Under the pieces are notes generated by a model, which worked only from the letters and a program-made list of their open reading frames with translations, had not been told where the DNA came from and did not search any database. Shown piece after piece: positions 6,067-39,421 of a DNA stretch of 53,105 nucleotides. How positions within the stretch are numbered: the stretch's first letter is position 1; each line of letters starts with the position of its first letter. Made by a program: the position numbers and the translations under genes. Source of the stretch: a virus; IMG/VR virus record IMGVR_UViG_3300028837_001657, positions 1-53,105 of that record, one strand, 5' to 3'.

Positions 6067-6084
6067 CCTCATGCATGCATGAGG
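6067..6084. promoter_or_regulatory. 18-bp perfect palindrome CCTCATGCATGCATGAGG (site 1)
   Basis: A perfect palindrome in the spacer between the head-closure gene and the next virion gene. Near copies lie in three other intergenic spacers (16512, 19399, 37688). A short hairpin GTGTTGC-AG-GCAACAC follows at about 6085-6100. The likely role is a protein-binding operator or boundary element; this is inference from recurrence and location. Confidence 0.6.
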
Positions 6085-16500: not shown

Positions 16501-16511
16501 AATCAAACCAA

Positions 16512-16864
16512 CTACATGCATGCATGAGGTGGCTTTCTCCCGTTGTTGACTCGGTTTGCAACTTTGGTTTTCGACGGGTTTTTGACGGTTTTGACGGAAA
16601 CGAACCCCCAGATGTAGGGGGGACGGGGGTAGTCAACCCCCAGATGTAGGGGTGGACGAGCGTCAAAAACCGTCAATAGACGAAAGTCTTACGAACGGGC
16701 ACGAACCCCCAGATGTAGGGGGGACGAGGGTGGTCGACCCCCAGATGTAGGGGTAGACCAGGAAAACGGCGTTTGGGCGGTATAATGTATCAAGTCCCGG
16801 GTTTTGGCGCTACAAAGCGGCACTCAGTGAGTGTTATTATGTAGAGCAGTTGTTGAGTCAACGC
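16512..16864 (+). promoter_or_regulatory. Control region copy 1: palindrome, four iterons, TATAAT and conserved leader
   Basis: No gene lies between 16501 and 16865. The segment carries a catgcatgcatgagg palindrome half, then CCCCCAGATGTAGGGG iterons at 16605, 16637, 16706 and 16738 (spacing 32, 69, 32). TTGACGG/CCGTCAA inverted repeats flank the first iteron pair. A TATAAT box lies at 16781-16786 without a recognisable -35 box. The segment ends at the ATG of the tail-terminator gene. A near copy, inverted, occurs at 37365-37705. The missing -35 and the iterons just upstream suggest an activator-dependent promoter. Confidence 0.85.
16605..16753. repeat. Four 16-bp iterons (copy 1)
   Basis: CCCCCAGATGTAGGGG at 16605-16620, 16637-16652, 16706-16721 and 16738-16753. 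The four units form two pairs. The outer CCCC/GGGG arms form a dyad around AGATGTA. In each pair the two units are 32 bp apart, three helical turns, so bound proteins would sit on one face of the DNA. Confidence 0.9.
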
Positions 16865-16865
16865 C

Positions 16866-17285
16866 ATGCAAGACGCGATCAAGACAACTTTTGAGGCAGA
16901 CGGAACTATAATGGCACTGCTCACTGGGGGCGTACACGTCACTGGAGAGATCAGCCGCCAGATTACGCCTACGGCTTTCGACGGCAGTGCAGAGATACTG
17001 CCCTGCTGTCTGATCAAAGAGATGGACCAGGTGCCAACGGGTGACCTGGAGACAACTACGTCTGTCTCTACTCGCCTGCGCATCTCTGTTCTCTTTTATC
17101 AGCGAAGCGGATACGATGTGATCAGCCAAGCGCGCGCTCGAGCTTTTGCGTTACTACACCGACAAAGGTTAGACCAGGCTGGGGTGTGGACGTTGGAATG
17201 GACAGATGACGTGATCGAGCAAAGAGACGGGGCGCTTGGCTGCTCCCTGGAGATTGCCCGGTACGTGTCTGTGCAATGGAAATGA
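16866..17285 (+). CDS. Tail-terminator-like protein
   Basis: First gene of the tail operon. No Shine-Dalgarno is visible before ATG 16866; the leader ends in GTTGAGTCAAC. The 139-residue alpha/beta protein has strands and a helix pattern (MQDAIKTTFEADGTIMALLTGG, central LRISVLFYQRS, C-terminal ALGCSLEIARYVSV) found in siphovirus tail-terminator proteins that cap the tail tube at the head end. The context (tube, chaperone and tape measure downstream) supports this. Confidence 0.6.
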   Translation: MQDAIKTTFEADGTIMALLTGGVHVTGEISRQITPTAFDGSAEILPCCLIKEMDQVPTGDLETTTSVSTRLRISVLFYQRSGYDVISQARARAFALLHRQRLDQAGVWTLEWTDDVIEQRDGALGCSLEIARYVSVQWK

Positions 17286-17307
17286 GACCACTAGAAAGGA
17301 GGTCAGC

Positions 17308-17694
17308 ATGCTCATAGTGTGGCTGGGACCGAAGAATCGGATTCGTGTACATAAAGGCACAGACTATCAGTGGCGACGAGAGAACGATTTCCTGCAAGAG
17401 GTAATAGAGGCAGACGTACTTGCAGACCTGCTCACGCAAGCCGGCGGCAGTGAGTTTATGGTCCACCAGGACGACCCCCTTCGTGACCTCGTACCCCATA
17501 GTCACATCGTAGAGATGACTTTCGCCGGGATCGTGTCGCTGGCTGACCTGGCTGCCGTGGAAGATATCGCGGCCGTCTTAGAGGTCTGCACTGCCGGTGA
17601 AGAGCAAGTCAGTGAATGGATAGCCCGGGCCCGTGACTTGCCCGATGGACAAGAAGTGGGCTTGGGTACAACAGAACCAGTAGAGGAGGACTAG
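17308..17694 (+). CDS. Hypothetical tail-region protein, 128 residues
   Basis: ATG 17308 follows AAAGGAGG. The protein has an N-terminal strand pair (MLIVWLGPKNRIRVHKG), a helical segment rich in Asp/Leu and an acidic C-terminus. It lies between the tail terminator and the tube protein. Many phages have an extra small protein at this point, but no family is recognised. Confidence 0.6.
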   Translation: MLIVWLGPKNRIRVHKGTDYQWRRENDFLQEVIEADVLADLLTQAGGSEFMVHQDDPLRDLVPHSHIVEMTFAGIVSLADLAAVEDIAAVLEVCTAGEEQVSEWIARARDLPDGQEVGLGTTEPVEED

Positions 17695-17698
17695 AAGA

Positions 17699-18208
17699 AT
17701 GTCATACACGTATGGACTGAGGGATGTCAAGGTAGCCGATTTTCCAGATGGCGCCAACGCAGTCGATCTGCCGGCCGCCCGCACGTTGGGCTTCGAAGAG
17801 CGGATCGCCACGTCTGAGTTGGAAGGCGATGACGTAGTTGTGTCCGTGCATAGCTCCGTCGCCGCGCTCAACTGGACGCTGGAGAACGGCGGCATTGACC
17901 TGGATGCTTACGGCAAGCTCACCGGGCGAACGCCGGTCGCGGGGACGGGTGAGGTCACCTTGTCGGCCGCAGGAGGCGATAGCTTCCCTTGGCTGAGGAT
18001 CTGGGGTCAGAGCATCGGGGACGAAGGTGACGACATCCACGTCAAACTGTTCAAGTGCAAGGTGACCGCGGTCAGCGGGACCTGGGGACTCAACGAGTTC
18101 TTCGTCACGGCTTGCAGCGGTATCGCCATTCCTGACGGTTCCGACCGCATCTGGGACGTCGTCACGCATGAGGCCGACGAAGCTCTGGACATCACCGACC
18201 CGGTGTAA
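17699..18208 (+). CDS. Major tail tube protein
   Basis: The 169-residue protein resembles siphovirus tube subunits: beta-rich with ATSELEGDDVVVSVHSSV near residue 38, a helix-loop with GGIDLDAYGKLTG near 63, FPWLRIWGQSIG near 98 and a C-terminal strand. The gene sits just before the tail chaperone pair, as in most siphoviruses. Monomers would polymerise around the tape measure. Confidence 0.7.
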   Translation: MSYTYGLRDVKVADFPDGANAVDLPAARTLGFEERIATSELEGDDVVVSVHSSVAALNWTLENGGIDLDAYGKLTGRTPVAGTGEVTLSAAGGDSFPWLRIWGQSIGDEGDDIHVKLFKCKVTAVSGTWGLNEFFVTACSGIAIPDGSDRIWDVVTHEADEALDITDPV

Positions 18209-18239
18209 TGCCACGACAATAGAATAGGAGGACAGGAGC

Positions 18240-18791
18240 ATGAGCAAGAAGCCCGAACGAACAGTGCCCGCGCCGACGCAGGCTGCTATGCCTGCCGTGC
18301 CGACTTTAGCGGACGCGATGACAGCGGCAGCAAAAGCACGCGAAGCGCAACAACAAGCCATGCCACTCCCCGAACCAATGAAATTTGGGGAATGGCAAGA
18401 ACAGCAGCGCAAGGGCGTGCCATGGGTGCTTCCTTCCGGCTTGATCGCTTACCTGAAGCCGGTCGGTATCCTCGACTTAGCAGCGCGGGGAGGCATCCCC
18501 GCGCCGCTAATGGGGATGGCAGAGAAGATCACCTCTACAGATACGATCCAGGTACTCTTGAAAGAACTCGGCACCTTCACTGAGACCGTGAGGCTGGTCG
18601 TTCTCGCCGCCGTCGTGTTTCCCAAACTGGTAGCAGAAGAACCAGAGGATGATCAGGAACTGGCAGATGATGAGCTCTGGATTGGAGATTTACTGCTCAG
18701 TGATCAACTAGCAGTATTCAACTGGGCTAACAACACCAGCCAGGTCCTGCGGCCCTTTCGTCCAGAATCCGACGGAGCTGTGGAAACTTGA
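18240..18791 (+). CDS. Tail assembly chaperone (G-type product)
   Basis: ATG 18240 follows AGGAGGACAGGAGC. The 183-residue protein has an Ala-rich N-terminus and a helical core with PWVLPSGLIAYLKPVGILDLAARGGIP and TETVRLVVLAAVVFPKLV, typical of tail assembly chaperones that coat the tape measure. Near its end the reading frame can slip at TTT C (18756-18759), giving an extended protein joined to the following frame. The stop codon of the short form is at 18789. Confidence 0.7.
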   Translation: MSKKPERTVPAPTQAAMPAVPTLADAMTAAAKAREAQQQAMPLPEPMKFGEWQEQQRKGVPWVLPSGLIAYLKPVGILDLAARGGIPAPLMGMAEKITSTDTIQVLLKELGTFTETVRLVVLAAVVFPKLVAEEPEDDQELADDELWIGDLLLSDQLAVFNWANNTSQVLRPFRPESDGAVET

Positions 18792-19062
18792 CCTAGTTGC
18801 ACGACGGTACGGCGAGCGGCCAAGCGCCATCTTGGGCATAACTGATTCTTGGCTGGCGTATCAACTCGACCTCACCTGCGCGGGCGCAGGCCTGCGGGTA
18901 GAAACCGCGCAGGTGAAGGCGCGAGCAAGTGGCAAGGCCATGCCTTCCGCGGCAGATGTGCTCTCTGGCAAAGGCCAGGCGACGCAGTTCACTTCCTTCA
19001 GATCGAGGGGGATCACGCCGCGCAAAGTCCAGATACGAGAGGACGGGGGTTGGGATGACTAG
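18756..19062 (+). CDS. Frameshift extension of the tail chaperone (GT-type), about 101 residues
   Basis: No start codon fits, but the frame is coding-like from about 18751: GPFVQNPTELWKLDLVAR, then RYGERPSAILGITDSWLAYQ, the classic second chaperone domain. It is in the +1 frame relative to the upstream gene. The junction contains CCC TTT CGT: the Phe tRNA on TTT can slip one base to TTC, then read GTC. The fused product is therefore about 274 residues. Programmed frameshifting at this gene pair is a general siphovirus property. Confidence 0.7.
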
Positions 19063-19390
19063 GATGGACCAATCACCAGTCAGGCCTGATGGCAGGCCTG
19101 CTGGTGGAGTGCGCACGCCATTCTTCATTGGTCAGCCATCTGACCAGGTACGCCAGGTTGCCAAGCGCACGGGGCGGCAGGCGTTACGTCGGCCTGAAAA
19201 GATTGGTACGGATACCAACGGCCTGATCGTCCAATGGTTCTTGCCTGACGTGACCCTTACTTTCCGCCTGTGGAAGATCGGCCGTGTGACCTGCTACCGA
19301 GTGACCGAGATCATACCCACTGAGCAAGAGCGACGCGCGCAGGCGTCGGGCCGGCCGCGCAAGCGAAAACGCCAACGCAAGAAGAAGTGA
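19055..19390 (+). CDS. Hypothetical basic protein between chaperone and tape measure
   Basis: ATG 19055 overlaps the end of the chaperone extension; a second ATG lies at 19064. The 111-residue product contains FFIGQPSDQVRQ, a beta-rich middle (LIVQWFLPDVTLTFRLWKIG) and a Lys/Arg-rich tail of about 20 residues. Some phages carry a third small protein here. Function unknown. Confidence 0.55.
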   Translation: MTRMDQSPVRPDGRPAGGVRTPFFIGQPSDQVRQVAKRTGRQALRRPEKIGTDTNGLIVQWFLPDVTLTFRLWKIGRVTCYRVTEIIPTEQERRAQASGRPRKRKRQRKKK

Positions 19391-19398
19391 TTTTCTTA

Positions 19399-19416
19399 TC
19401 TCATGCATGCATGGGA
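19399..19416. promoter_or_regulatory. ATGCATGCAT palindrome (site 3)
   Basis: TCTCATGCATGCATGGGA in the 60-bp spacer before the tape measure gene matches 15 of 18 bases of the perfect palindrome at 6067. It has the same intergenic placement as the other copies. Confidence 0.5.
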
Positions 19417-19450
19417 CTGATTGGACAGGAGCAAGGTGTAGTGACCTGAC

Positions 19451-22400
19451 GTGGCAGTTCAAGTAGGTTCCGCCTACGGCAAGATCGGCATAGACGTCTC
19501 TGGTATCCAACAGGGCGTCAATCAAGCCAATACCATGATCGGCGGCTTTGGGAACGCAATTGGAAGGGTGTTCCAATACGCTGCCGGGACTCTCGTGGCC
19601 CAGGCCGTCAGCCGTATCTCTGGCGCGTTCATATCGACAGGCAAAGAAGCCATCCTCGGCGCTGCCCGTGTAGGAGAAATGGGCGTCGTGCTCGAGGTGA
19701 TGGGTGCGCGGTTGGGACACACTGCCACTCAGATGGAATCTTATGTACAGGGCGTCATTGAGGCAGGAATCCGAACCGATGTCGCTCAAAACCTCATCGC
19801 GCAGTTCACCCGCAACAACCTTGACCTAGCAGATGCGACCGGCCTGGCCCGCGTTGCACAAGACGCGGCAGTCCTATCCATGCAGGACTCCAGTGCCGCG
19901 CTGCAGAAAATGGTATGGGGCATCACTACGGGCAACACCCGTATCTTGCGCCAGGCCGGGATCATGATCAACGCCAACGAGGTCTACAAGCAATACTCGG
20001 CAAGCATAGGGGTGGCGGCTAACGAACTGACAGAGGCCCAAAAACAACAAGCGCGCCTCAGTGCCGTCATGGAACAAGGGCAACGTATTGCGGGCACTTA
20101 CGAAGCGGCGATGGGATCGGCGGGCAAGCAACTGCGCTCGATCCCACGGTACATCTACGAGACGTTGCTGGCGATCGGGCAACCATTCCAAGATGCTTTT
20201 GGCTCAGTGGTATTCAGCATCAGTGACGCAGTTAAGCAAGTGCAGTCCTTTGTGTCTGAAGGAGGGGCACTGTTCCCGCTGTTCCAGAACTTGGGTGCGG
20301 TCGCTGCCGTCATAGGCGAGAGCTTCGGCAACGTTGTGCGCGGGTTGGTCGGAATACGCCAAGAGGCGGTCCGGGCAGCCGAAGACATGGACGCAGCAAT
20401 GCGGGGGGGCGTGGCAAGCATGCAACGCGCCAGCCAAGAAGGATTCAACACCTGGCTGACCAGCCTCGCCAATACTCTCCAGCAAGGTGCATCGAGCGCG
20501 CTGACCTGGGGGATCGAGATCAGCACTCAGCTTGCCACTGGCCTGGTGCAAGGTGCTGCTGCCGCGATCACGGCCGCGATGAATGCTATCAGCGGCTTGC
20601 TGACCTTTTGGTTGGGACCGGGATCGCCGCCCCGCGTGGCCCCTGAGTTGGCTGAGTGGGGTGCGGCATGGATGACCGAGATACTGGAAGGCTTCTCTCA
20701 GGCCGACTACGACGTCTTGGGGGGAGTGCAGCGACAATTGAGCACCGCCCTGGACACTTTAGTCAACCTGGGAGAATTGACCGAAGATGCAGTAGGGGAC
20801 ACCTACGCCAGTGTCTCTTATCAGTTAATGGCCGCGCTGGATCAGTTCAATCAAACAGGAGTAATGTCGACGCAAATCTTCGACGACTTGGTCGAGGTGG
20901 GCGGGGACTTCGGGCAAGAGCTGGCAGACTTGCTGGGGATGGAGTTGGACCTGGCCGTCGCCACCGCGAAGGCGGCAGAGGCGCAGCAAGACTTGAACGA
21001 TGCGCAGGCTGCCGAGATGGCATACGACCAGTTGTTGGCCGACCTGGGGGTACTGCGGGCCGAGTACGCCGTCGTGCAATCAGAAGGCATTGAGGCTGCC
21101 AGCGCGCAAGAGACTGCCGCGCGCACGCAGGTCGACGCAGTGCAGGCACTCGTCAGAGAGTATCAGGCTCTCGCCGCCGCCGGCGCTGATACTTCTTTGC
21201 TTGCTGCAAAAGAGGCAGAGATCGAGGCCACGATGACTGCGGCCGACGCCTCGGTAGGTGCGCACCAGCAGACCGTCGCCGCGACCGACGCGGCCCTCGA
21301 CGCGCTCGAAGGTCAGATCGACGCCAAAGAGGATGAGGTAGACGCAGCGGAGGCAGCGGCCCAGGCAGCACAGGCACAGATCGACGCAGCACAGGCCACC
21401 TATGACCTGGCCATGATGGAAGTAAACGCTGCGCAAGAGAAAGTGGACCTCCAAAACCAATTGCTCGACCAAGTGTTCGGCATTACTGATGCACAGGCAG
21501 ACTCGCTCGCCATCACGGACGACATTGCAGGCGCGTTAGGTGCAGCCGCAGGGGGAGCGGGCGGACTGAGTGACGCCTTGGCGGGGGCGATGGACATGGC
21601 GGGCGGCCTCGCGGGGGCCGGAGAATCAGTCGTCAGTGCCTTCGATGTCTTGAAGGAGCAAGTGCGCGACAAGCTGGCAGAGGCATTCGAGCCCGTCCGT
21701 GTCCTCTGGGAAGAAACGTTGCCCAAGGCACTTGCCCCGCTCCAAGAAGCATGGGACGGACTGATGGGCGACATGCGGCGCGTCTACGATGAGAAAATCC
21801 AACCCATCGTGGACGGGATCAAGGATGTTCTGCCGGACGACTTTTTGGTCAAACTCGGCCAGGTAGCCGGGGTGGTACTTGCGGCAGATCTCGCCTTTAG
21901 GTTGCTGGGGCTCTCTTTGGCTATCGTGGCTACCCTCGTCTCGGCCATTACCAGTCCAATCGCGCTGATCGTGGGCGCAGTCGCCCTGTTGTACGTCGCA
22001 TGGACAGAGAATTGGTTTGGCATCCAAGACGTCACTACACGAGTGTGGGAGAAGCACATCAAGCCAGCAGTCGAGGGCATCAAGAAGTGGTTCGAGAAGA
22101 ATTGGCCCATCATACAGGCTGTGTTTCTGACCGCATGGACGGTCATCCAAGACGTCGCCACGGTCGTCGCCAACATCTTCACCAACAGCATCATGCCCAG
22201 CATCCAAGGGGCTCTTGAAAACATATCCGCAGCGATGGAAAGCCTGGGGATTGATTGGGAGGCTATTTGGGGCTGGCTAGGCGACATCGTCATGACTATA
22301 GGCGCACTGATCGGTGGCAACCTCCTCTTGGTCGTGGGCATCATCGTTTCAGCCTTTGAAACCGTGGCAGAGGTCATCGCTTATGTTACCGGCGTTTGGG

Positions 22401-23263
22401 CGCAAATGGCCGAAAGCGTGCGCCTGATCATCGAAGGACTCTCCAACATCATCGGCGGTGCCATGGCGCTGATCAAGGGAATCATCACCGGCGACACTGA
22501 TTTGATCCGCGAATCATTCAAGGCCAACTTCGAGGGCGTCAAGCAAATTGTCGAAGGGGTATTCGGTTTCATCTCCTCTTGGATCTCGCTCACCTTGGGC
22601 ACAGTTATCAAGACTGTGGGCGGCTTCGTGGAGAATCTCATCTTTTTCTTCGTGGACCTGTACGAGCAGCTAGTCGGCGGCTCGATCATCCCCGAACTGA
22701 TGGAGGGCATGCTTGGCCTGTTCGTGGACACGCTTGAGGATTTATGGCTTTACTGGAAAGAGAAGTGGACCGACATCCTCGACACGCTGCGCAACATCGT
22801 TTCCGACATCCTCGCCACGATTCGGACGTGGCTCAGCGATGTGTGGCAAACCGTGACGACTACGTTCAACGACATCGTGATCTTCTTGCAAGGTCTCTAT
22901 GGCAGTGCGGTAGATGCGGGGAAAGCCTTCATCCAGGGCTTGATAGACGGCATCGGTCAGATGACGGACGCACTATGGAATGCTGTCATGGCTGTCGCGC
23001 AATCGGTGATCGACTGGTTGTTCTCAAAGTGGGGCATCCCCACGGGGGGCGGTGGCGAAGAGAAGGCCGCGCTGGCAGAGATCCTCGGTAGTTATGGGAA
23101 CCTGCCCGCCACCGCCATGCCTGGCCTCGCCTTGGCAACGTCGCCAGCAACAGAGGGAGCGGCGCTGCTGCCATCCACCCTCATCGTTTATGGCGACGTG
23201 ACGGTGGAAGGCGTGCAGGACACGTCTAGCCTGATGGCTGAGTTACAGGAGCTCGCGCTATGA
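19451..23263 (+). CDS. Tape measure protein
   Basis: The 1,270-residue protein is the longest in the window and has the composition of a siphovirus tape measure. Its N-terminus has GKIGIDVSGIQQGVNQANTM, long Ala/Gln/Glu coiled-coil stretches follow (about 510-690), and hydrophobic segments occur around 800-860 and 950-1000. At the usual 0.15 nm per residue it implies a tail of roughly 190 nm (rule of thumb). No peptidase or lysozyme domain is visible. Start GTG 19451 has only a weak ribosome binding site. Confidence 0.85.
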   Translation: MAVQVGSAYGKIGIDVSGIQQGVNQANTMIGGFGNAIGRVFQYAAGTLVAQAVSRISGAFISTGKEAILGAARVGEMGVVLEVMGARLGHTATQMESYVQGVIEAGIRTDVAQNLIAQFTRNNLDLADATGLARVAQDAAVLSMQDSSAALQKMVWGITTGNTRILRQAGIMINANEVYKQYSASIGVAANELTEAQKQQARLSAVMEQGQRIAGTYEAAMGSAGKQLRSIPRYIYETLLAIGQPFQDAFGSVVFSISDAVKQVQSFVSEGGALFPLFQNLGAVAAVIGESFGNVVRGLVGIRQEAVRAAEDMDAAMRGGVASMQRASQEGFNTWLTSLANTLQQGASSALTWGIEISTQLATGLVQGAAAAITAAMNAISGLLTFWLGPGSPPRVAPELAEWGAAWMTEILEGFSQADYDVLGGVQRQLSTALDTLVNLGELTEDAVGDTYASVSYQLMAALDQFNQTGVMSTQIFDDLVEVGGDFGQELADLLGMELDLAVATAKAAEAQQDLNDAQAAEMAYDQLLADLGVLRAEYAVVQSEGIEAASAQETAARTQVDAVQALVREYQALAAAGADTSLLAAKEAEIEATMTAADASVGAHQQTVAATDAALDALEGQIDAKEDEVDAAEAAAQAAQAQIDAAQATYDLAMMEVNAAQEKVDLQNQLLDQVFGITDAQADSLAITDDIAGALGAAAGGAGGLSDALAGAMDMAGGLAGAGESVVSAFDVLKEQVRDKLAEAFEPVRVLWEETLPKALAPLQEAWDGLMGDMRRVYDEKIQPIVDGIKDVLPDDFLVKLGQVAGVVLAADLAFRLLGLSLAIVATLVSAITSPIALIVGAVALLYVAWTENWFGIQDVTTRVWEKHIKPAVEGIKKWFEKNWPIIQAVFLTAWTVIQDVATVVANIFTNSIMPSIQGALENISAAMESLGIDWEAIWGWLGDIVMTIGALIGGNLLLVVGIIVSAFETVAEVIAYVTGVWAQMAESVRLIIEGLSNIIGGAMALIKGIITGDTDLIRESFKANFEGVKQIVEGVFGFISSWISLTLGTVIKTVGGFVENLIFFFVDLYEQLVGGSIIPELMEGMLGLFVDTLEDLWLYWKEKWTDILDTLRNIVSDILATIRTWLSDVWQTVTTTFNDIVIFLQGLYGSAVDAGKAFIQGLIDGIGQMTDALWNAVMAVAQSVIDWLFSKWGIPTGGGGEEKAALAEILGSYGNLPATAMPGLALATSPATEGAALLPSTLIVYGDVTVEGVQDTSSLMAELQELAL

Positions 23264-26968: not shown

Positions 26969-26978
26969 GAAGAGAAGA

Positions 26979-29399: not shown

Positions 29400-29599
29400 T
29401 GACAGCCGTGCTGCATAGAGCAGCCTATGGGATAGGTGTCCTCGGGGGCACACTGATCGGAACGGGGTTAGCGTTTATTCCGTTTCTTTCTACCCACTTA
29501 GTGATCGGATTGCTACTCACAGTTGCGAGCTACTGCACTTCGGTCATCACTTGTGCAATTGACGTGCCTGAGCGTGAAACAGACAGGAGGATAGCATGA
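29372..29599 (+). CDS. Probable holin, two-segment membrane protein
   Basis: I choose ATG 29372 within the end of the spike gene; a GTG at 29399 is an alternative. The 75-residue product has two hydrophobic segments (GIGVLGGTLIGTGLAFIPFL and LVIGLLLTVASYCTSVI) and a short charged end. Its position just before the lysin and its size suit a holin, but the fold is not specific. It overlaps the lysin start by four bases (ATGA). Confidence 0.6.
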   Translation: MDAAVLTRVVTAVLHRAAYGIGVLGGTLIGTGLAFIPFLSTHLVIGLLLTVASYCTSVITCAIDVPERETDRRIA

Positions 29600-32500
29600 G
29601 CACTATAACCGTCGTAGTTAAGCCAAGTGCACCGCAAGTCGGAGGGGCGTTGAGTGTCGTCGCCAAAAGCGCCGATGCCTTGACCAACGTCAAACTCAAT
29701 GTGCACGATCCGACCGGTGCCCTTGTCGGGCGCACGGCCGTCACTGTCGGGCGAGACGGCAGTGATTACATGTGGAGTTGGACAACTGACCCACTTGCCT
29801 TGCAAGGAGACCACGTCGTGGCCGTGACCACCTCGGCAACTAACGCCACAGTGACGGTGATGGTTGGAGATCCACAGGCAACTATCCACAGCAAGCTCGG
29901 CCCGCACATCATCAAAGACGAGCACGCGGGGTACTTGCTGGCTGGCCCGGCAGTAGCAAAGTATGTTGGAGAGTGGGGGAGTGCAGTGCACTACGCACTC
30001 GCTAATACCTTAGTCATTGGGCGTCTCCACAGTGAGGCCTATGATGCACAGTGGCATGTTGCACAAGGCATGTCACCTCAGCAAGCGGCAGAAATGTTCG
30101 TGCCTGATCAACTCGGCACCTACATGTCCAATGAGCACATTCTCTACTGGGAGGGGCACAATGAGCCAATCTGGAACACAGCAGAAGAGATGGCCTGGTA
30201 CGCGGAGTTTGAGATAGCACGCATGCAACTGATGGCAAACATCGGCTTGCGCTGCGTGATCGGTAACTTTGCCACCGGAACACCGGCCTTGTCACTGTGG
30301 CCTGCATTCTTACCGGCGATTGAAGCGGGATTAGAACACAAGGCTATTCTTGGCCTGCATGAGTACAGTTGCCCATGGATGTGGTGGATGACGGGCAGTT
30401 ATCAACTAGATCCGGCAGACGATCAAGGAGACGAGGGGTGGACGACGTTGCGCTACCGAAAGGCTTACAGGCAACATCTGATTCCCGCTGGCCTCGGTCA
30501 TATTCCCTTGGCGATCACAGAGGCCGGGATCGACTCGTTAGTCAGGCCACTTCCGCCTGGAGCACCTGGGGCGGCCTGGAGCGATCTGGGGGATTACTGG
30601 CGAGACCACGACAGAGAACCAGATGCGGCAGATTACTATTTCCAACAGTTGGTGTGGTATGATCAAGAACTGCAAAACGATGAGTATGTAGTAGGTGCGA
30701 CAGTTTTTTGCTTCGGCAACTACGGGGCGCCTTGGTCTGCCTTCGACGTGGCGGGCACAGCAGTTGCCGACAAGCTGACCGCCTATGCACAGGCGTACCC
30801 GGGCAAACCGTTTGTGTATCCTACCGACAAAGTGTCAGGGCGTGGCGATCCTCGCACGCCTTACAAGCGTACTTATGTCCTCTTACCTCCCGGTGCCGAC
30901 AAAGACTGGGCAGTGGCAGCCATCGAGGGCAGTTGGAGACAAGGGCAGACGGTCGGCGGAAGCGCCGACGATGCGGGGATCGGGGACTTGCCCGACAAGA
31001 CCGCCCGCGTCATCAATCCGGCTGAATGGACCAACGGAGACATCGCAAATTTCTACGGGACGCACTACCCGAACACGGGCATCGAGCCTTTAGTGGCGAA
31101 CACGCCTGCAGAACTCAAGGCGGCACTACAAGGCCAAGCGACTGCGGAGTATCCTTGGCACAGGGATGTCACGGCCGCACTGCCACAACGGACTGACTAT
31201 GAGGCATGGTCGGGAACGTCACTAGAAAATGGATGGGGAACGCGCACCCTTGCAGAGATCGACGACATCTGCATCCATCATACGGCAGGACTGGCAGAGG
31301 CCATCGGAGCTGATGTCGGGGCCAGTGATTTCTATAACCTGGTGCACTGGTACGTGTGGAGCAAAACGTGGACATCAGACCTTCACACCTACACCGGCCA
31401 TCCCTCCGGACCTTACAGCATCGTGATCGACACCGTAGGAACCGTGCTTCTGGCAAACGACCTGACGGTAGCGTGCTGGCACAACCAACGTGGGGCAAGC
31501 CTGTCCTTGTCCATTGGTCTTTTGTGTGATGCAGTGAATGGTCTGCCCACGGAGGCCCAACTTGACGCCTTGGCCGGCGTGTGCGTCTGGGCGATCCAAT
31601 CGGATGTACTGCCAACCATTACCTCTATCGACCAGATCACAGGACACCTCGACTGGTTTGCGACAGAGTGCCCCGGCTGGACGGACAGTGCGGGCCACGA
31701 CCGGTGGAAAAGGGCGTTGCTCGAAAAGATCAGTGTGCAACTCGGAGAACCTTTGCCAGGGAATGGACCAACGCCAACTACAGCATCTCCGGTCTTAGGT
31801 ATTCACGACTGGCCGGGCAATGCGGAAGGCGGTTCGGCTATTCGCTGGCTGGCTGATCAAGGTTTGGCGGGTACGGTCTACGTGCCGCTCTACGTGGGCA
31901 CAGGTGTGAGCGGGTTGAACTTGCAAGGCTATGCTGATCAGGGCTTCAAGATTTACTACAACTTGAGATTCTCGTACTCAACTGACAAGGGAGGTGCGGG
32001 GACGTTGCCGCCGGAGAACGAGCTTGACGACTTCGTGGAGGCGTGCCTGGGGACGATGCGCGCCAGCACGGGCATCGCGGGCTACGCCATTGGGAATGAG
32101 TGGAACAACCCGAGGGAATCGCCGAAGAACTTTGACCTCAGCCCGACTTACGTGGCTGCTGTCTACAACGAAATCTGGCGACGGAAGCCGGAGGGCGCCC
32201 GCGTGAGCCTGGGGGCCGTTGATCCGTTCTTCGGGCCGGGGAGTGACTGTGGCTGGTGGTTTGACGAGGTGATGAAACAGGTCGAAGGGATGGACTTCAT
32301 CGACCTGCACGGGTACGTCAGGGGGCCGAACGCCGGCCTGGTGTGGTCAATGGAGATGTTTGGGGATGATCCCTTGCGCTGGCAGTACCTCAACTACTTT
32401 GGCTGCGTCGAGACGATGCTTCGGAGATTACCTGCACGCTTCCACGATCTGCCCGTGATCGTGAGCGAGTTCAACCACTTGTGGAAAACCAGCGAAGAGG

Positions 32501-32700
32501 TTGGGGACCTGGGGTGGGTAGACGACGAAAGGGCGACGGCAGTGCTGCACAATGCTATCGCCCGTGCCTTGGAGTGGAACGAGGCCGGCGGGCATAACCC
32601 GATCGAGGCAGTGATCGCTTACCGCTGGTCAGGCGACGAATGGGCTATAGATGGACGGGGAACCATCAAAGCATACCTGGCCGACCTGCTCCGCGAGTGA
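29596..32700 (+). CDS. Multidomain endolysin: two clan-A glycosidase modules around an amidase
   Basis: The 1,034-residue protein starts after AGGAGG. Residues 1-95 look like an Ig-type domain. About 95-420 resemble a TIM-barrel (clan A) glycosidase: WEGHNEP near 188 as possible acid/base, LAITEAG near 304 as nucleophile strand. After a linker, an N-acetylmuramoyl-L-alanine amidase (Amidase_2) spans about 545-720, with IDDICIHHTAG near 558 and HLDWFATECPGW near 684 giving zinc ligands. A second barrel (about 730-1034) has IGNEWNNPRE near 832 and VIVSEFN near 953. Linkage to a holin-like gene supports lysis, but a virion role is possible. Confidence 0.7.
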   Translation: MSTITVVVKPSAPQVGGALSVVAKSADALTNVKLNVHDPTGALVGRTAVTVGRDGSDYMWSWTTDPLALQGDHVVAVTTSATNATVTVMVGDPQATIHSKLGPHIIKDEHAGYLLAGPAVAKYVGEWGSAVHYALANTLVIGRLHSEAYDAQWHVAQGMSPQQAAEMFVPDQLGTYMSNEHILYWEGHNEPIWNTAEEMAWYAEFEIARMQLMANIGLRCVIGNFATGTPALSLWPAFLPAIEAGLEHKAILGLHEYSCPWMWWMTGSYQLDPADDQGDEGWTTLRYRKAYRQHLIPAGLGHIPLAITEAGIDSLVRPLPPGAPGAAWSDLGDYWRDHDREPDAADYYFQQLVWYDQELQNDEYVVGATVFCFGNYGAPWSAFDVAGTAVADKLTAYAQAYPGKPFVYPTDKVSGRGDPRTPYKRTYVLLPPGADKDWAVAAIEGSWRQGQTVGGSADDAGIGDLPDKTARVINPAEWTNGDIANFYGTHYPNTGIEPLVANTPAELKAALQGQATAEYPWHRDVTAALPQRTDYEAWSGTSLENGWGTRTLAEIDDICIHHTAGLAEAIGADVGASDFYNLVHWYVWSKTWTSDLHTYTGHPSGPYSIVIDTVGTVLLANDLTVACWHNQRGASLSLSIGLLCDAVNGLPTEAQLDALAGVCVWAIQSDVLPTITSIDQITGHLDWFATECPGWTDSAGHDRWKRALLEKISVQLGEPLPGNGPTPTTASPVLGIHDWPGNAEGGSAIRWLADQGLAGTVYVPLYVGTGVSGLNLQGYADQGFKIYYNLRFSYSTDKGGAGTLPPENELDDFVEACLGTMRASTGIAGYAIGNEWNNPRESPKNFDLSPTYVAAVYNEIWRRKPEGARVSLGAVDPFFGPGSDCGWWFDEVMKQVEGMDFIDLHGYVRGPNAGLVWSMEMFGDDPLRWQYLNYFGCVETMLRRLPARFHDLPVIVSEFNHLWKTSEEVGDLGWVDDERATAVLHNAIARALEWNEAGGHNPIEAVIAYRWSGDEWAIDGRGTIKAYLADLLRE

Positions 32701-32705
32701 CAAAC

Positions 32706-32738
32706 AAAAAAAAGCCCCCGCCTCGAGGCGAGGGGCTT
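32706..32738 (-). terminator. Strong rho-independent terminator for the left operon
   Basis: On the minus strand, GAGGC pairs into a GC-rich stem (AAGCCCC.. / ..GGGGCTT, one bulged base, 13 paired) followed by eight Ts. On the plus strand it is followed by no T-run, so it mainly ends leftward transcription. It separates the convergent tail/lysis and left operons, which end only 80 bp apart. Confidence 0.85.
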
Positions 32739-32779
32739 AGTACCGGCAAGTCGGAGTGTTCAGCGAGGAATTGTCGAGG

Positions 32780-33391
32780 TTACCCGTTCTCGTCCCTGGC
32801 AACTTGGAACATGCCCTTGTTGCCACTCTTCTCAGGTCTCCAGTCACCGATGCCCACATGGAACCCAGCGATTTCCAGTAGTCGGGCAATGTCGTCAGCG
32901 GAGATGACTGTGGGGTTGAATAGTACGTCGAACGTGATTGACCATGGGGGCGAGAATTCCGCACGATAACGCAGGTCGGCCACACCACGCCCGATCACGA
33001 CCACGTCTTCGCGCATGTGAGGCTCGCTGTCTTCGATGGGCAACACGCCGCCCAAGACGTAGAACGCTCCGCGTGCGCTGGTCATGGTCATGTCAGGAAC
33101 AAAGCGGCAGGCCCCCACACAGGCGGCCTTGATTCCGTCCGCGATGAATCCCGGCCGACCGTCTTCGGTCATATACATTGAAGCCTTGTACTCTATTTCC
33201 GGAGTGCGTACCGGTCGTCCTACAGTCGTGTCCTTCTTCTGCTGCTTATCCCGTATCCTCTTGATCTTGTCAGGATCAAACCTGTTGCAGAGCAACGGAC
33301 TTAACCCTGTGATCGTGATCGTCATCCGTTCTTTCTGGATCTGCGGGATCATCACTGTCTTTGCTACTGGTGTTCCTTTTGCTTTTGTCAT
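32780..33391 (-). CDS. Conserved phage protein with VGIGDWRPEKSG motif, downstream of a pentanucleotide array
   Basis: ATG 33391 follows ACAGGAGAC. The 203-residue protein has a recognisable pattern from phage genomes of uncertain function: ITGLSPLLCNRFD near 27, a helix with GRPGFIADGIKAACVGACRF (about 77-96), MTSARGAFYVLG, MREDVVVIGRGVADLRYRAEF (about 124-144), and C-terminal LLEIAGFHVGIGDWRPEKSG (about 168-187). The glycine-rich end is weakly reminiscent of Cas7/RAMP-fold loops, an inference only. As the promoter-distal gene of the left operon it is preceded by a 480-bp pentamer array. Confidence 0.65.
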   Translation of the reverse strand: MTKAKGTPVAKTVMIPQIQKERMTITITGLSPLLCNRFDPDKIKRIRDKQQKKDTTVGRPVRTPEIEYKASMYMTEDGRPGFIADGIKAACVGACRFVPDMTMTSARGAFYVLGGVLPIEDSEPHMREDVVVIGRGVADLRYRAEFSPPWSITFDVLFNPTVISADDIARLLEIAGFHVGIGDWRPEKSGNKGMFQVARDENG

Positions 33392-33426
33392 GTCTCCTGT
33401 CCGCCTTTCTATAGCTGTGTGTTCTT

Positions 33427-33905
33427 CGCCTTACCTTGCCTAACCCTGCCACACCGCACTGTGCCGGACCCAGCCTTGCCTTGTCACGCCTGGCCCTACC
33501 GAGCCGCGTCTGATAATGACGGTCCGCGCCTTGCCGTGCCTAGACCCGCCCAGCCCTGCCTAACCACGCCGTGCCTCGGCACTGTGTCAGATGAAGGCGG
33601 TCCTCGCCTTGCCAGGTCACGCCTTGCCGTGCCCTGCCCGGCCTAGCGATACCTAGCCGTGTCAGATAATGGCGATCCGCGCCTTGCCTTACCTTACCAG
33701 GCCGCACCATACCATACCCCGCTCTGCCAAGCCACGACAATTCGCCTCGCCTTGCCTCGCCAGGCCTTACCTCACCACGCCCTGCCCGACCCTGCCAAAC
33801 CCTACCCTTCCGTGCAGTGCCATGCCGCGTCAGATGATAGCAGGCCTCACCTTGCCTTGCCTCACCTCGCTGGGCCTAACCGCACCATGCCATGCAATGC
33901 CATGC
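33427..33905. repeat. Degenerate pentanucleotide repeat array with embedded 25-bp element
   Basis: About 480 bp of degenerate 5-mers (GCCTT, GCCGT, GCCTA, ACCTT on the plus strand, i.e. AAGGC type on the transcribed strand) fill the only large gap in the left operon. At 33506, 33583, 33658 and 33825 the pattern is broken by a related element of about 25 bp, core GTCAGATAATGGCGATCCGC. The array is open in several frames, so ORF predictions here (such as a plus-strand frame at 33419) are artefacts. It lies between the stop of one gene and the start of the next. Confidence 0.85.
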
Positions 33906-33909
33906 CGCG

Positions 33910-34389
33910 TCAATCTGCAATCATGTCAATCGCTGCGATCACCGCAGCAAATTCTTCGTAGGTGGCATACTTCTTGCGCCAAGCAAGCAATTGCCGATGG
34001 GCATCTTCAAGAACCTGCGCGCGCAAGGCATCTTCATTCATAGCTTTGGCGACGAGGACATAAGCCTTCACAGGCTCATCGTCTGCACGTTTCAAGGTGA
34101 CGTGCTGGAAAGCCCGCACGGTCACGACTTCACTGCAGTCCGCGGCCGTCACCACGACGTGGATTGATCGGAGAATGTAACTGGCTTGCTCAAGCCGCCA
34201 TTTCTCCGCTGCCGTTTCGTCGTCCCACTCAAACCCGTCATGCAATGGAGATCGCTTTGATCGCGCATCTTTGACGACTTGAGCAGGAGTAATGCTGCCG
34301 TCACTGCGCACGATCAGACGCGTGATGCGGTCTCCATACTTTTGTGCTTGTTTTCGCGTTAGTGTCGATCCGTCGGCAGGTATGTACAA
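33910..34389 (-). CDS. Conserved phage hypothetical protein, 159 residues
   Basis: ATG 34389 is preceded by AAAGGAGATGC. The protein has RKQAQKYGDRITRLI near residue 12, then ITPAQVVKDARSKRSPLHDGFEWDDETAA near 33 and a C-terminal helical region with RQLLAWRKKYATYEEFAAVIAAI. This combination is a familiar phage orphan family adjacent to recombination genes; role unknown. The gene ends where the pentamer array starts. Confidence 0.6.
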   Translation of the reverse strand: MYIPADGSTLTRKQAQKYGDRITRLIVRSDGSITPAQVVKDARSKRSPLHDGFEWDDETAAEKWRLEQASYILRSIHVVVTAADCSEVVTVRAFQHVTLKRADDEPVKAYVLVAKAMNEDALRAQVLEDAHRQLLAWRKKYATYEEFAAVIAAIDMIAD

Positions 34390-34401
34390 GCATCTCCTTT
34401 G

Positions 34402-34593
34402 TTACTCGACGAAGGCGAGTAACGCTGCTGCGCGCCTTATCAGAAGATCCACAGTTGCCTCCGCCCATTTCTCGAACGTGGGGGGGGGGCTTTCAGTAAG
34501 CTGCTCGCGAAGCTGCTCCGCTTCGTTCGTGGGAACGGTGAGCAACACGCGCCATCTCTTCTTGTTCCATCTGCACTCTTGTAGTGCTTTCAC
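34402..34593 (-). CDS. Small hypothetical protein, 63 residues
   Basis: ATG 34593 overlaps the stop of the proteasome-like gene by four bases, suggesting coupling. The product is helical with a Trp/Lys-rich start (RWNKKRWRVLLTVPTNEAEQ). Its middle contains a run of C on the minus strand (34485-34492) coding PPP. No function is assigned. Confidence 0.45.
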   Translation of the reverse strand: MKALQECRWNKKRWRVLLTVPTNEAEQLREQLTESPPPTFEKWAEATVDLLIRRAAALLAFVE

Positions 34594-35138
34594 ATCGACA
34601 TGACATAGTACGGTCCATGTACGCCGCTGCTGAATTGTCCCGCGATGTGCAACGCCTCTAGGATACGCTCCTTAGGCGGTAAGTCACACTCGTCGTCCAG
34701 GGCAGCCATCGCCCCGAGAGCATACTCGCGCCCGCATCCAATAGCTGCTAGGCCCCCTCGATCATTGTAGGCTGTGACCTGGAAGTCATCGTGGATGTGG
34801 TACGCCTGGCTGCGATAGCCTGCCAAGAAAAACCCGCCTTCTTCGCGATTGTCCTCAACCTTTGTGAACCCGCCTTCCTTCAAGCACGTGCGGACAGCAG
34901 GGATAAAAGTGGCGACGAGATAGGCATGATCCTTCACGCCGTCTACGTGCTCAGGGATGGTCAAGTCAAACCGGAGCAGTTGCGCCATCCGGATGCTTCC
35001 TGTACAGCCGAGTAAGAAAGGGCCGTTGCGGAATACTTTTGTCGCCGCCATCTGCCGGATGCTCCAACCTGAGAGGACAGCGGAATCGCTACCCATCCAT
35101 ACCTTGCCACTGTCGGGCAGGGCAATGATGCAAGTCAT
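34590..35138 (-). CDS. Proteasome beta/HslV-like Ntn hydrolase
   Basis: The 182-residue protein looks like a self-compartmentalising Ntn hydrolase: MTCIIALPDSGKVWMGSDSA at the N-terminus puts a Thr at position 2 as candidate nucleophile after Met removal, with an Asp-Ser pattern near 17. The remaining fold segments (GGFFLAGYRSQAYHIHDDFQV near 102 and GCGREYALGAMAALD near 135) are also family-like. Phage versions of this family are known. The substrate is unknown; it may process or degrade host proteins. It lies between the ATPase gene upstream and small genes downstream. Confidence 0.65.
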   Translation of the reverse strand: MTCIIALPDSGKVWMGSDSAVLSGWSIRQMAATKVFRNGPFLLGCTGSIRMAQLLRFDLTIPEHVDGVKDHAYLVATFIPAVRTCLKEGGFTKVEDNREEGGFFLAGYRSQAYHIHDDFQVTAYNDRGGLAAIGCGREYALGAMAALDDECDLPPKERILEALHIAGQFSSGVHGPYYVMSM

Positions 35139-36232
35139 CGTGAATTCCTCTGAACAAGTTCAGTCGTTCTAAGCGCCGCATTTAACACAGTCAAGAGCGG
35201 AGCGTCGAATCTTGTCCTCTTCCCTTCTGCGTACACAAAGAACTCTCCGGAGGCCAGCCGCTCTGCGGCTGTACTGAACGTAACCTCACTGAGGTCGCAG
35301 GCATTCTGCGCATCCGGTGTTTTACCAAGGATGCGCACAAGGAACCCCCAAGCCGAAAAGAGCCCGACGCATGGAGGTTTTCTTTCTACCGTGGCGACGA
35401 CGTGCACTCCTACAGCAGGGCCGTGCGTCGTGATATACGAAAAGATAGGCGCCAGGTTGCCAGACTGCTCGAAAACGTCTTCGAGGCCGTCCACGATAAA
35501 CAGCAAGGTAACAAAGGCATCGGGCTGGGGTTTCATTTCACGCTCTATGACAAGACGGGCTACCGCGCGCACCGATCTTTCTACCTTGCAAGCATGCACA
35601 TCAACAGGTGCGGTCATAAGGTGCGGGACGGAATCTGACCAGCCCCACTCTTCTCGCGGCGCGATGATCAACATGCGCAACGCAGCCGGCGATTCGCTCA
35701 ATGCAAGAGACATCACCAGGCAGCGCAGTAGATTTGTCTTTCCGGCTCCGGCCTCTCCACTGATCAGAACGTTCTTGACATCCTCAGAGGGCAGCCGCAC
35801 TAAAAGCGGCGTCCCGTCTTCAGCCAACCCGATCATCCCTGTAAGACGCGGGGGCCTTCTTGCCTGCCTTGGGGGATTTAGCAGAGCAGCAGCAAGATGA
35901 GGGAGCCCTGGCAGTGTGATCACATCATCGTACTGGTACAACTGCTCGTACAACTGCCCGAACTGTAAAGGTGCCACGTTGACGCGGAGAGCCACGACTG
36001 CCACTCTTGCGCCCCGCCGCTCTACGCGACATTCCATCCTTAGCGCGCTCGTTAGCGTGTCAATCAACGCAGGAGTAATAAGGATGGTGTCTCCGCTGAG
36101 ACGAGGGAATACGTCGAAGCGCACCCACCTGTGTGTTCTCTGCCCTCCTGAAATTCTTACACGGATGCCCTGACTTGCGAAAGCGGTCTCTACCCTGTCT
36201 GCTTGAAACTCCAACTCTGTTCTGATAGTCAT
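35135..36232 (-). CDS. FtsK/HerA-type P-loop ATPase
   Basis: The 365-residue protein has a Walker A motif GEAGAGKT at residues 159-166, an inferred Walker B hhhhD in LLFIVDGLED near 243-252, and the order of elements of FtsK/SpoIIIE/HerA motor proteins (VKNVLISGEAGAGKTNLLRCLV, THGPAVGVHVVATVER). The 150-residue N-terminal region looks like a DNA-associated adaptor. Start ATG 36232 shares the ATGA junction with the preceding small gene, and its stop overlaps the Ntn hydrolase start. It may move DNA at packaging or segregation, or form a nuclease-coupled motor. Confidence 0.6.
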   Translation of the reverse strand: MTIRTELEFQADRVETAFASQGIRVRISGGQRTHRWVRFDVFPRLSGDTILITPALIDTLTSALRMECRVERRGARVAVVALRVNVAPLQFGQLYEQLYQYDDVITLPGLPHLAAALLNPPRQARRPPRLTGMIGLAEDGTPLLVRLPSEDVKNVLISGEAGAGKTNLLRCLVMSLALSESPAALRMLIIAPREEWGWSDSVPHLMTAPVDVHACKVERSVRAVARLVIEREMKPQPDAFVTLLFIVDGLEDVFEQSGNLAPIFSYITTHGPAVGVHVVATVERKPPCVGLFSAWGFLVRILGKTPDAQNACDLSEVTFSTAAERLASGEFFVYAEGKRTRFDAPLLTVLNAALRTTELVQRNSR

Positions 36233-36363
36233 CTTGTCGTTTCCTCCTTGTGTTCTGCAGGAAGGCCAAGGAGTTCGGCCAGACCGGTTGCCCTTTCTAT
36301 GGCCGCCTTAGCACATGCTATTGCTTCTTCTAGCCCGGCAGCTCTGCCGCCACTTCGCGGCAA
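36229..36363 (-). CDS. Small acidic helical protein or second frame of a split coiled-coil gene
   Basis: A TTG at 36363 could start a 44-residue frame GGRAAGLEEAIACAKAAIERATGLAELL that ends in an ATGA overlap with the ATPase gene. The start lacks a strong ribosome binding site. The amino-acid pattern continues the helix of the preceding 50-residue frame (36330-36482) if one base is slipped back. The two frames may be one gene with a frameshift or two tiny genes. Confidence 0.4.
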   Translation of the reverse strand: MPRSGGRAAGLEEAIACAKAAIERATGLAELLGLPAEHKEETTR

Positions 36364-36482
36364 AGAGCACTTGAATCCAGCAGCGCCGCCTCTGCCACCT
36401 CCGCTCGCTGATCGGCGGCTTTAGCGCGAGCCTGGGCTGCCTCGAGTGCCAGGGCTGCTTCGAGTATTGCTTGTTGATCCAC
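36330..36482 (-). CDS. Small Ala-rich coiled-coil protein
   Basis: GTG 36482 follows AAAGGGGGAAAC on the minus strand. The 50-residue frame is rich in Ala, Glu, Arg and Gln (EAALALEAAQARAKAADQRA), similar in character to the 84-residue coiled-coil gene at 37344. It ends where the second frame continues at 36363-36229 (-1 direction). This gene is too short for usual length cut-offs. Confidence 0.45.
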   Translation of the reverse strand: MDQQAILEAALALEAAQARAKAADQRAEVAEAALLDSSALCREVAAELPG

Positions 36483-36496
36483 GTTTCCCCCTTTGA

Positions 36497-37093
36497 TCAT
36501 AACAGTATCAATTGCTCATTCCTCTGAGCGCCCACGTTTCTGACATCTACGCTCAAGACGACTCCGAGCGAAGCTGCTAACTCCGAGAGTTGTAGTTGGG
36601 CCTCATCTAATTGACGTTGCTCCATCTCAATCCGGAATTTCTGATAGGTCGGGCTGCTGCCGGTGCGGACTCCGCGTGCGACTTCATCCGCATGTTGCTG
36701 TGCTTGTAATAGATCCCGCCTACAGCTCGCCACCTGCTCGCTTGCCCAGGCTACCTGTACAAGTGCAGATAGATGATCCACACGGACCCAATGCTCAATG
36801 CAGAACTGATCTTTGCGCCATAACCCCAGGGAGAACATGGCGTTGATCCAAATATCGGGATCAGGACCGAGCACACCATACCGGTTTTCTTTGATTGCCT
36901 CCACCGTCTCACTGGTGTGCGTCCAAACGTTGCGCCAAGTAGTGCCCGGCAGCTCATCCATCGTCCACGGCAACACCGTCATAGGGAACGGTAGTCGTGG
37001 ATAGGGCTGTTCAGGGATGCCGCGCATCATTTCTTGTTCCCGAGCCACCTGCTCTATCGTTTCACCCGTGAAGCGGGCGAACAGTTTCGTCAT
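36497..37093 (-). CDS. Hypothetical protein, 198 residues
   Basis: ATG 37093 overlaps the end of the preceding coiled-coil gene by four bases. The protein has a Pro-rich start with FPMTVLPWTMDELPGTTWRNVWTHTSE (about 37-65), then an aromatic middle and a long helical C-terminal half (residues 115-175) with Glu/Gln/Arg. It appears to be phage-specific; no motif is recognised. Confidence 0.6.
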   Translation of the reverse strand: MTKLFARFTGETIEQVAREQEMMRGIPEQPYPRLPFPMTVLPWTMDELPGTTWRNVWTHTSETVEAIKENRYGVLGPDPDIWINAMFSLGLWRKDQFCIEHWVRVDHLSALVQVAWASEQVASCRRDLLQAQQHADEVARGVRTGSSPTYQKFRIEMEQRQLDEAQLQLSELAASLGVVLSVDVRNVGAQRNEQLILL

Positions 37094-37344
37094 GTAGGCT
37101 CTCCAGTAAGGCGGCGACGCAAATCTTCGCCTTTGTGAAAGACGGCCGTGAGTCGTTGGTTCACTTCGCGCACGGTCGCCTGCATCTTTGCCAGAGCGTT
37201 CTCCGCCTCCTCCGCACGGACTTCCGCTTCTGCGGCGCGCTGCTCGGCGGCCTTGGCGCGCTGCCCCAACGTTTCCAGTGCCTGGTCCTTCTCCGCTAAG
37301 GCCGCTGCCGCAGCCTCAGCTCCATCGAAAAGATGCTGGTTCAT
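37090..37344 (-). CDS. Coiled-coil protein, first gene of the left operon
   Basis: ATG 37344 follows AGGGAGTGAGAT. Residues about 10-65 form an uninterrupted Ala/Glu/Gln/Arg heptad helix (EKDQALETLGQRAKAAEQRA), followed by a short basic end. It is the first gene after control region copy 2, equivalent in position to the tail-terminator gene after copy 1. Oligomerising role; specific function unknown. Confidence 0.6.
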   Translation of the reverse strand: MNQHLFDGAEAAAAALAEKDQALETLGQRAKAAEQRAAEAEVRAEEAENALAKMQATVREVNQRLTAVFHKGEDLRRRLTGEPT

Positions 37345-37475
37345 ATCTCACTCCCTGTGAAAAATGCGTTGACTCAAAAACTGCTCTACATAATGAACTC
37401 ACTGAGTGCCGCTTTGTAGTGCCAAAACCCGGGACTTGATACATTATACCGCCCAAACGCCGTTTTCCTGGTCTA

Positions 37476-37624
37476 CCCCTATATCTGGGGGTTGACCACC
37501 CCCGTCCCCCCTACATCTGGGGGGTCATGCTCGTTCGTAAGACTTTCGTCTATTGACGGTTTTTGACACTCGTCTACCCCTACATCTGGGGGTTGACTAC
37601 CTTCGTCCCCCCTACATCTGGGGG
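37476..37624. repeat. Four 16-bp iterons (copy 2)
   Basis: On the plus strand CCCCTACATCTGGGGG (or CCCCTATATCTGGGGG at 37476). Units start at 37476, 37508, 37577 and 37609. The spacing of 32, 69 and 32 is the same as in copy 1. Confidence 0.9.
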
Positions 37625-37687
37625 TTCGTTTCTGCCAAAACCGTCAAAACCCATCGAAAACCAAAGTTGCAAACCGGGTGACAAGTT

Positions 37688-37705
37688 TCTCATGCATGCA
37701 TGAGT
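37688..37705. promoter_or_regulatory. ATGCATGCAT palindrome (site 4)
   Basis: TCTCATGCATGCATGAGT; the inner 16 bases are a perfect palindrome. It stands at the upstream end of control region copy 2, where copy 1 has the same motif less two bases. Confidence 0.6.
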
Positions 37706-39055: not shown

Positions 39056-39421
39056 TTACCACCCACGTTGAGCCTGTAGTTTCTGGTACGCAGCATCATC
39101 CAACTGTTCAGCAATCTTGGTGCCGCATTCTGTAAGTCTGAAACCTTGTCTCATCATTCCACTGCCCACTCCAGTCGCAACTGAAACCAGGTGGCGGCTA
39201 ATGAGGCTTTGCAACGTGCGACTATCTACCCGCTCCTCCGGTGCCTCTAGCCAGTAGAGGCCGTCAACAGTGGTGCTAGGTTCGTCACCTTGAAAAAGTC
39301 GCAATAGCATCGCCTCTTGGTTTGCGGATAATGGCTTCATTTCACTTCTGACAACCTCTCCTAGTGCAGTAGTGTCACCTACTTCTTGTGTGCTGCGCGG
39401 ATCAAAGCAGGTCGTGACCAT
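39056..39421 (-). CDS. Putative winged-helix-like protein
   Basis: The start is ambiguous: ATG 39421 overlaps the radical-SAM gene, while ATG 39340 leaves a gap. The C-terminal 90 residues have the pattern of a small winged helix (ANQEAMLLRLFQGDE, DSRTLQSLISRHLVS, FRLTECGTKIAE), ending in a basic tail. It may be a regulator, but this is based on secondary-structure pattern only. Confidence 0.45.
   Translation of the reverse strand: MVTTCFDPRSTQEVGDTTALGEVVRSEMKPLSANQEAMLLRLFQGDEPSTTVDGLYWLEAPEERVDSRTLQSLISRHLVSVATGVGSGMMRQGFRLTECGTKIAEQLDDAAYQKLQAQRGW

Follow-up and report, generated by a model that had tools for sequence, protein, structure and literature searches.

The 53,105-base virus record IMGVR_UViG_3300028837_001657 of IMG/VR (classed as linear, 57% G+C), referred to here in its whole length as the window, carries two nearly identical control cassettes, inverted relative to each other, each placed directly before one of two gene runs that converge. 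As anatomy, the arrangement of one duplicated control cassette for two operons is well supported; as function, the support is moderate. The reading that we favour, with somewhat less than even confidence, is that the cassettes would be paralogous copies of a single cis-acting control unit with an activator-dependent promoter, coordinating both runs. The two copies are the following:

16549-16864, + strand: left control cassette, 94% identical to 37366-37679 (-).
37366-37679, - strand: right control cassette, 94% identical to 16549-16864 (+).

Self-BLAST paired positions 16552-16864 with 37676-37366 on the opposite strand at 94.2% identity over 313 bp (E 5e-135), above the approximately 90 percent that an initial annotation, made by eye, had given for two inverted near-identical regions. 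The cassette alignment comprises 316 columns with 19 differences (17 substitutions and 2 single-base gaps), homology beginning at 16549 in the left copy and at 37679 in the right one, and inverted-repeat detection recovered the same pair with 256-nt arms at 95%. Both cassettes point inward, and their ends lie 2 nt (left) and 21 nt (right) from the ATG. The ATG of the left copy is not preceded by any Shine-Dalgarno-like sequence, and the GGGAG of this kind found at the right copy is outside the duplicated block. No third copy or fragment was detected in the window by self-alignment or by a scan with the 16-mer described below. The longest identical run between the copies, 61 nt around a TATAAT hexamer, is not unusual (P 0.29) and was not used as evidence.

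The upstream part of each cassette contains four copies of a 16-mer box:

16605-16620, + strand: box 1, left (CCCCCAGATGTAGGGG), exact.
16637-16652, + strand: box 2, left, exact.
16706-16721, + strand: box 3, left, exact.
16738-16753, + strand: box 4, left, exact, at -55 to -40 of the assumed transcription start.
37609-37624, - strand: box 1, right.
37577-37592, - strand: box 2, right.
37508-37523, - strand: box 3, right.
37476-37491, - strand: box 4, right (CCCCCAGATATAGGGG), one mismatch.

The start-to-start spacing of the boxes is 32/69/32 in both copies, and no insertion or deletion separates the copies within this array or in the distance from box 1 to TATAAT. Elsewhere in the window, a single site lies within three mismatches of the 16-mer, shuffled sequences giving 0.5. 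Each array consists of two 68-nt box pairs, and left pair 1 matches right pair 1 as pair 2 matches pair 2; thus, the four-box array predates the duplication of the cassette. Over the four box pairs, variable columns amount to 1 of 32 within the boxes versus 14 of 36 outside them (Fisher P 0.0003), and the asymmetric core of the 16-mer is kept in seven of the eight copies. The simplest reading of this constraint would be sequence-specific recognition of the 16-mer, its asymmetric core included.

Downstream of the boxes, the two copies share a promoter-like site and a leader:

16781-16786, + strand: TATAAT, left, without a -35 hexamer at 16-18 nt (CCAGGA at 17).
37443-37448, - strand: TATAAT, right.
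16793-16864, + strand: conserved leader, from the putative transcription start.

At window frequency, TATAAT is expected 0.024 times in a one-strand stretch of this length, and it appeared in 4% of shuffled cassettes; as the copies have it in common by descent, this improbability counts only once. No -35 hexamer was found at the normal distance from the cassette TATAAT, and a promoter scan returned no match at the site. Taking transcription to start about 7 nt past the hexamer, box 4 would be placed at -55 to -40, box 3 at -87 to -72, box 2 at -156 to -141, and box 1 at -188 to -173. A TATAAT without -35, with a 16-mer that would sit at -55 to -40, resembles activator-dependent promoters, as in the P2-type late promoters activated by Ogr (P4 delta, 186 B), where the -35 is absent and the activator site lies near -55. 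In contrast, the strongest sigma-70-like promoter on the leftward side (46606-46579, - strand), which precedes a gene with a weak ribbon-helix-helix match, has both hexamers (TTGACT-16-TATAAT, with TG). A structured leader was also considered and rejected, its fold being no better than shuffles and not preserved between copies.

The outer edges of both control regions are marked by a palindrome:

16515-16526, unstranded: palindrome CATGCATGCATG, outer edge of the left control region.
37691-37702, unstranded: palindrome CATGCATGCATG, outer edge of the right control region.

The four iterons with their spacing (one right-copy box having a mismatch), the TATAAT with its conserved leader, and the palindrome, all described for each region by the initial annotation, were thus recovered, the palindrome though beyond the aligned block. 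It is common to both regions but separated from the cassettes by an unalignable spacer of different length. Its four copies in the window (6070, 16515, 19402, and 37691; 0.005 expected per shuffle) are all intergenic and sit 10-38 nt past the preceding stop codon; two of them lie beside the cassettes, another is located before the tape measure gene, and the one at 6070 has the full form CCTCATGCATGCATGAGG.

The history of the left junction was traced by aligning the head morphogenesis protein with its Rctr41k counterpart and using this two-sequence alignment as query, which identified 45 related IMG/VR loci (32-45% identity) and nothing among genome contigs. Single-protein scans with the portal and DUF5131 proteins gave no close relative, and only this alignment did. 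Both flanking genes were readable in 39 loci, some of them redundant, and the gap between these genes was of 50 nt or less in 28, of 74-295 nt in 7, and occupied by inserted genes of several kb in 4, with no box array at this junction in any of the 39. As the junction is tight in the relatives, the 366-bp gap at 16500-16866 is an addition in the lineage of this phage. The conserved gene order across the left copy also indicates that the ends there were not misjoined by assembly, the right junction then following given two inverted copies, and that the assembled arrangement is the ancestral one.

According to the favoured reading, the two segments are one control unit, duplicated as a whole and placed in opposite directions before two converging gene runs. 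In each copy, a promoter consisting of TATAAT without -35 would be preceded by four 16-mers read by a phage regulator, and this same regulator would jointly increase expression of the tail/lysis genes and of the ATPase/HslV-like genes late in infection, adding to any read-through from upstream; the transcription start, the activator, and the timing are predictions from sequence. The constrained boxes and the TATAAT without -35 make a phage activator serving two late gene runs the leading model. The initial annotation had proposed one duplicated switch for two convergent operons, and this fits all our findings, given the duplication of the whole cassette, its position flush against the first genes, the constrained boxes, and the -10 without -35; its single DNA-binding activator is plausible, although unproved. 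Naming the product of 46171-46539, with its weak ribbon-helix-helix match, as the regulator would be only a guess; further candidate regulators are encoded at 39056-39340 and 44200-44499.

Several points weigh against this reading. The TATAAT could be a chance occurrence carried along by the duplication, and the AlphaFold models obtained for two candidate DNA-binding proteins had very low confidence and were too poor for searching. No cassette homologue that would show conservation over time appeared in the collections searched: DNA similarity was absent from phage and plasmid records, the box-pair, single-box, and TATAAT-leader patterns gave nothing real in viral contigs, and neither did the box-pair pattern in bacterial and archaeal genomes. 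Two matches to the TATAAT-leader pattern were rejected, as they sit in other sequences without further similarity. Finally, a model of DNA operators alone does not predict the strand-specific RNA-like fold that the upstream half keeps.

The logic of shared control is known in other phages, whereas the sequence and layout of the cassette are new. The closest precedent, in logic and not in sequence, is Ogr of phage P2, a small phage activator acting on several late operons by way of a conserved dyad that precedes their promoters (PMC3931495). The cassette itself has a -10 hexamer without -35 (TATAAT, with CCAGGA at the 17-nt position), a likeness noted above, but the TGT-N12-ACA activator site is absent from both cassettes, and where P2 has one site, the cassette has four 16-mers and the whole 315-bp block is duplicated. 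A six-frame scan of this incomplete contig for the Ogr-like motif CX2CX22CX4C, with relaxed spacing, returned only frames overlapping other genes, such as the tape measure and tail genes. A different likeness is found in the start-associated sequences (SAS) and extended SAS (ESAS) of cluster K mycobacteriophages, elements of unknown function that recur between genes and carry imperfect 17-bp inverted repeats immediately ahead of start codons (PMC3203893). Like them, the cassette is a repeated intergenic element near start codons; however, ESAS are short, numerous in each genome, and associated with the ribosome-binding region, whereas here there are two long copies with a box array and TATAAT, the left one without a Shine-Dalgarno before the ATG. 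The 17-bp inverted repeats beside a start-associated sequence, in many copies, were not found, and a comparison with all phage records was empty.

The fold in the upstream half involves these elements:

16582-16596, + strand: 5' arm of a 15-bp stem enclosing box pair 1 (TTGACGGTTTTGACG), RNA fold z -4.2, DNA fold z -4.7.
16661-16676, + strand: 3' arm of the 15-bp stem (CGTCAAAAACCGTCAA, one bulged base).
16686-16695, + strand: GTCTTACGAA, with a weak resemblance to the boxA core by inspection, found only in the two cassettes.

The predicted RNA fold around pair 1 was far better than that of shuffles (z -4.2 and -5.2 in the two copies), and with DNA parameters z was about -4.7 on both strands. 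Two stem changes distinguish the copies, one from G-C to A-T (16596/16661) and one from A-T to G-T (16594/16663), the latter pairing as G-U solely in the downstream sense. Preservation of the fold was evaluated by moving the 13 non-box substitutions randomly to like bases and computing the two-sequence consensus fold in about 600 cases. The downstream-sense fold was preserved, with -85.1 observed versus -77.7 simulated (standard deviation 3.2; P 0.0017, about 1 in 600 cases), while P was 0.085 on the other strand and 0.79 for the promoter/leader half. Over the full 318 nt, the fold of the antisense strand surpasses shuffles by more than that of the sense strand does, so the argument for one strand comes from the substitutions alone. 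Coming from two sequences and several tests, with possible dinucleotide effects, we take this signal as a lead; the boxes may act as RNA hairpins. Such RNA-like evolution in the downstream sense was not foreseen in the proposal of an activator binding the iterons.

It is conceivable, although clearly less probable than the activator-dependent switch, that the upstream half works as RNA and that TATAAT is an added local promoter or incidental. Read-through transcripts from the preceding genes would form the 15-bp stem together with C5/G5 hairpins whose loop is AGAUGUA, and a protein bound to them would alter transcript elongation, processing, or stability at this boundary between operons. This would resemble the lambda nut and HK022 put sites, which are paired related RNA-forming sites, one per operon and in opposite directions, with GC-stem hairpins downstream of promoters. 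The loss of the downstream-sense fold when substitutions are moved at random and the G-C to A-T and G-U-compatible changes within the stem are in line with this, as is the asymmetric core kept in seven of eight boxes, as expected of a recognised hairpin loop. TCTTAC at 16687 followed by the C5/G5 hairpin at 16706 may be a further likeness to nut and put, although the full boxA consensus is absent, the array lies upstream of TATAAT, and the four hairpins have a different loop. No N-type antitermination family was recognised among the scanned proteins, N-like proteins being short and divergent.

Also in favour of an RNA role, C5/G5-based hairpins, several of them intergenic, occur in the distant relatives (Rctr41k and IMG/VR loci), with up to 12 in one 26.6-kb record, and many of those of the form CCCCCAAAT..ATTTGGGGG in the relatives L067, L068, L063, and L003 have GCTCTT near the apex. 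They share the C5/G5 base but are single, with longer stems, without an array and with no sequence in common with the cassette. Hairpins at gene boundaries are thus a habit of this phage group, and none resembles the boxes in sequence. An RNA role is disfavoured by the small basis of the comparison (two copies, 13 substitutions, several tests), by the folded region preceding the one promoter-like site that the cassette has, by long-range parts of the predicted folds that differ between copies, and by DNA parameters favouring the stem too. Moreover, the covariance models of Rfam 15 gave no match at gathering score, only two sub-threshold ones at chance level. A stronger proposal goes further: the cassette would be a new kind of phage operon-boundary RNA element, in which identical C5/G5 hairpins are arrayed inside a long stem, act on read-through transcripts, and are joined to a promoter downstream, the duplication placing two convergent operons under one RNA-binding regulator. 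This proposal appears improbable. Either way of reading the boxes may hold, recognition as DNA being the preferred one and recognition as RNA the less likely one.

We consider it rather unlikely that the cassettes are a mobile or drifting intergenic repeat, similar to a miniature inverted-repeat transposable element, without regulatory role and in two copies by recent duplication. Structured ends and hairpins, the intergenic location, and a single added block at a junction tight in relatives would be expected of such a repeat; however, the two copies are oriented alike with respect to the gene that follows and stop at most 21 nt short of its ATG, the boxes are under constraint, matching target-site repeats were not seen, and no further copy was found in the window or, with the patterns used, among bacterial genomes and the remaining viral records. 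That the cassettes are a pair of replication origins, with the 16-mers as iterons for an initiator protein, is very improbable: repeated boxes and dyads do lie near an A+T-richer stretch, but no replication initiator was recognised among the scanned proteins, and the cumulative GC and AT skews turn at 32.95-33.1 kb, where the runs meet, and at neither copy, a weak argument since skew follows gene direction here. Two inverted copies longer than 300 bp and 94% identical would in principle suffice for homologous recombination, and the inversion of the 20-kb segment raised by the initial annotation may occur, giving the opposite isomer in the population. A dedicated inversion switch, flipping this segment to change phenotype, is the least credible reading: the flipped runs would still stand behind equivalent cassettes with nothing switched, the scanned proteins included no recognised invertase or integrase, and genes on either side of the left copy follow the conserved order.

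The gene runs governed, according to the favoured reading, by the cassettes comprise these features:

16866-32700, + strand: tail/lysis gene run, with connector-like, major tail protein, assembly chaperone, tape measure, Dit-like, beta-helix, and amidase genes (PHROGs and Pfam; synteny with Rctr41k and IMG/VR loci).
32780-37344, - strand: leftward gene run, with genes for an 84-aa coiled-coil-like protein, a 198-aa protein, an ATPase, a peptidase-like protein, and two unknown genes.
35135-36232, - strand: FtsK/SpoIIIE-type ATPase.
34590-35138, - strand: HslV-family peptidase-like protein.
32715-32734, - strand: intrinsic-terminator-like hairpin, a stem then T8, closing the leftward run.

Rightward genes occupy the left side of the window up to 32.7 kb and, besides those of the tail/lysis run, include portal and head morphogenesis genes; leftward genes extend from the right end to about 32.8 kb. 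The operons had been said to meet at a terminator, and the hairpin with T8 at 32734-32715 is indeed there, although oriented to stop the leftward operon only. The 84-aa and 198-aa proteins could not be assigned to any family. HslV and the 198-aa protein had no match in 22 related records, in a search without positive control, and the relatives of HslV share neither the ATPase, nor the other leftward genes tested, nor the cassette. Further upstream on the leftward side are a second FtsK-like ATPase and radical SAM-like, RuvC-like, and DUF5131 proteins.

Other observations concern the same genome. About 500 bp of the leftward run (33400-33915) show no obvious gene and consist of degenerate repeats of 5-bp period (CGCCT TGCCN ...), grouped in larger units having TCAGATRATGGC in common. 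An FtsK/TraD-like ATPase beside a membrane protein (41412-42794 and 43133-44053) is reminiscent of plasmid transfer modules. In addition, an 856-aa protein of approximately 18-residue repeats (GxITPAGxLxRxxxxxLxG), without family match, is encoded at 11021-13591, just upstream of the small gene preceding the portal.

If the cassette works as proposed, it would be a self-contained regulatory unit of an uncultivated phage group, and an HslV-like peptidase and an FtsK-type ATPase would be tied to the tail/lysis genes by shared control. Since the same boxes can be read either way, the cassette also offers a testable contrast between a DNA operator and an RNA hairpin.

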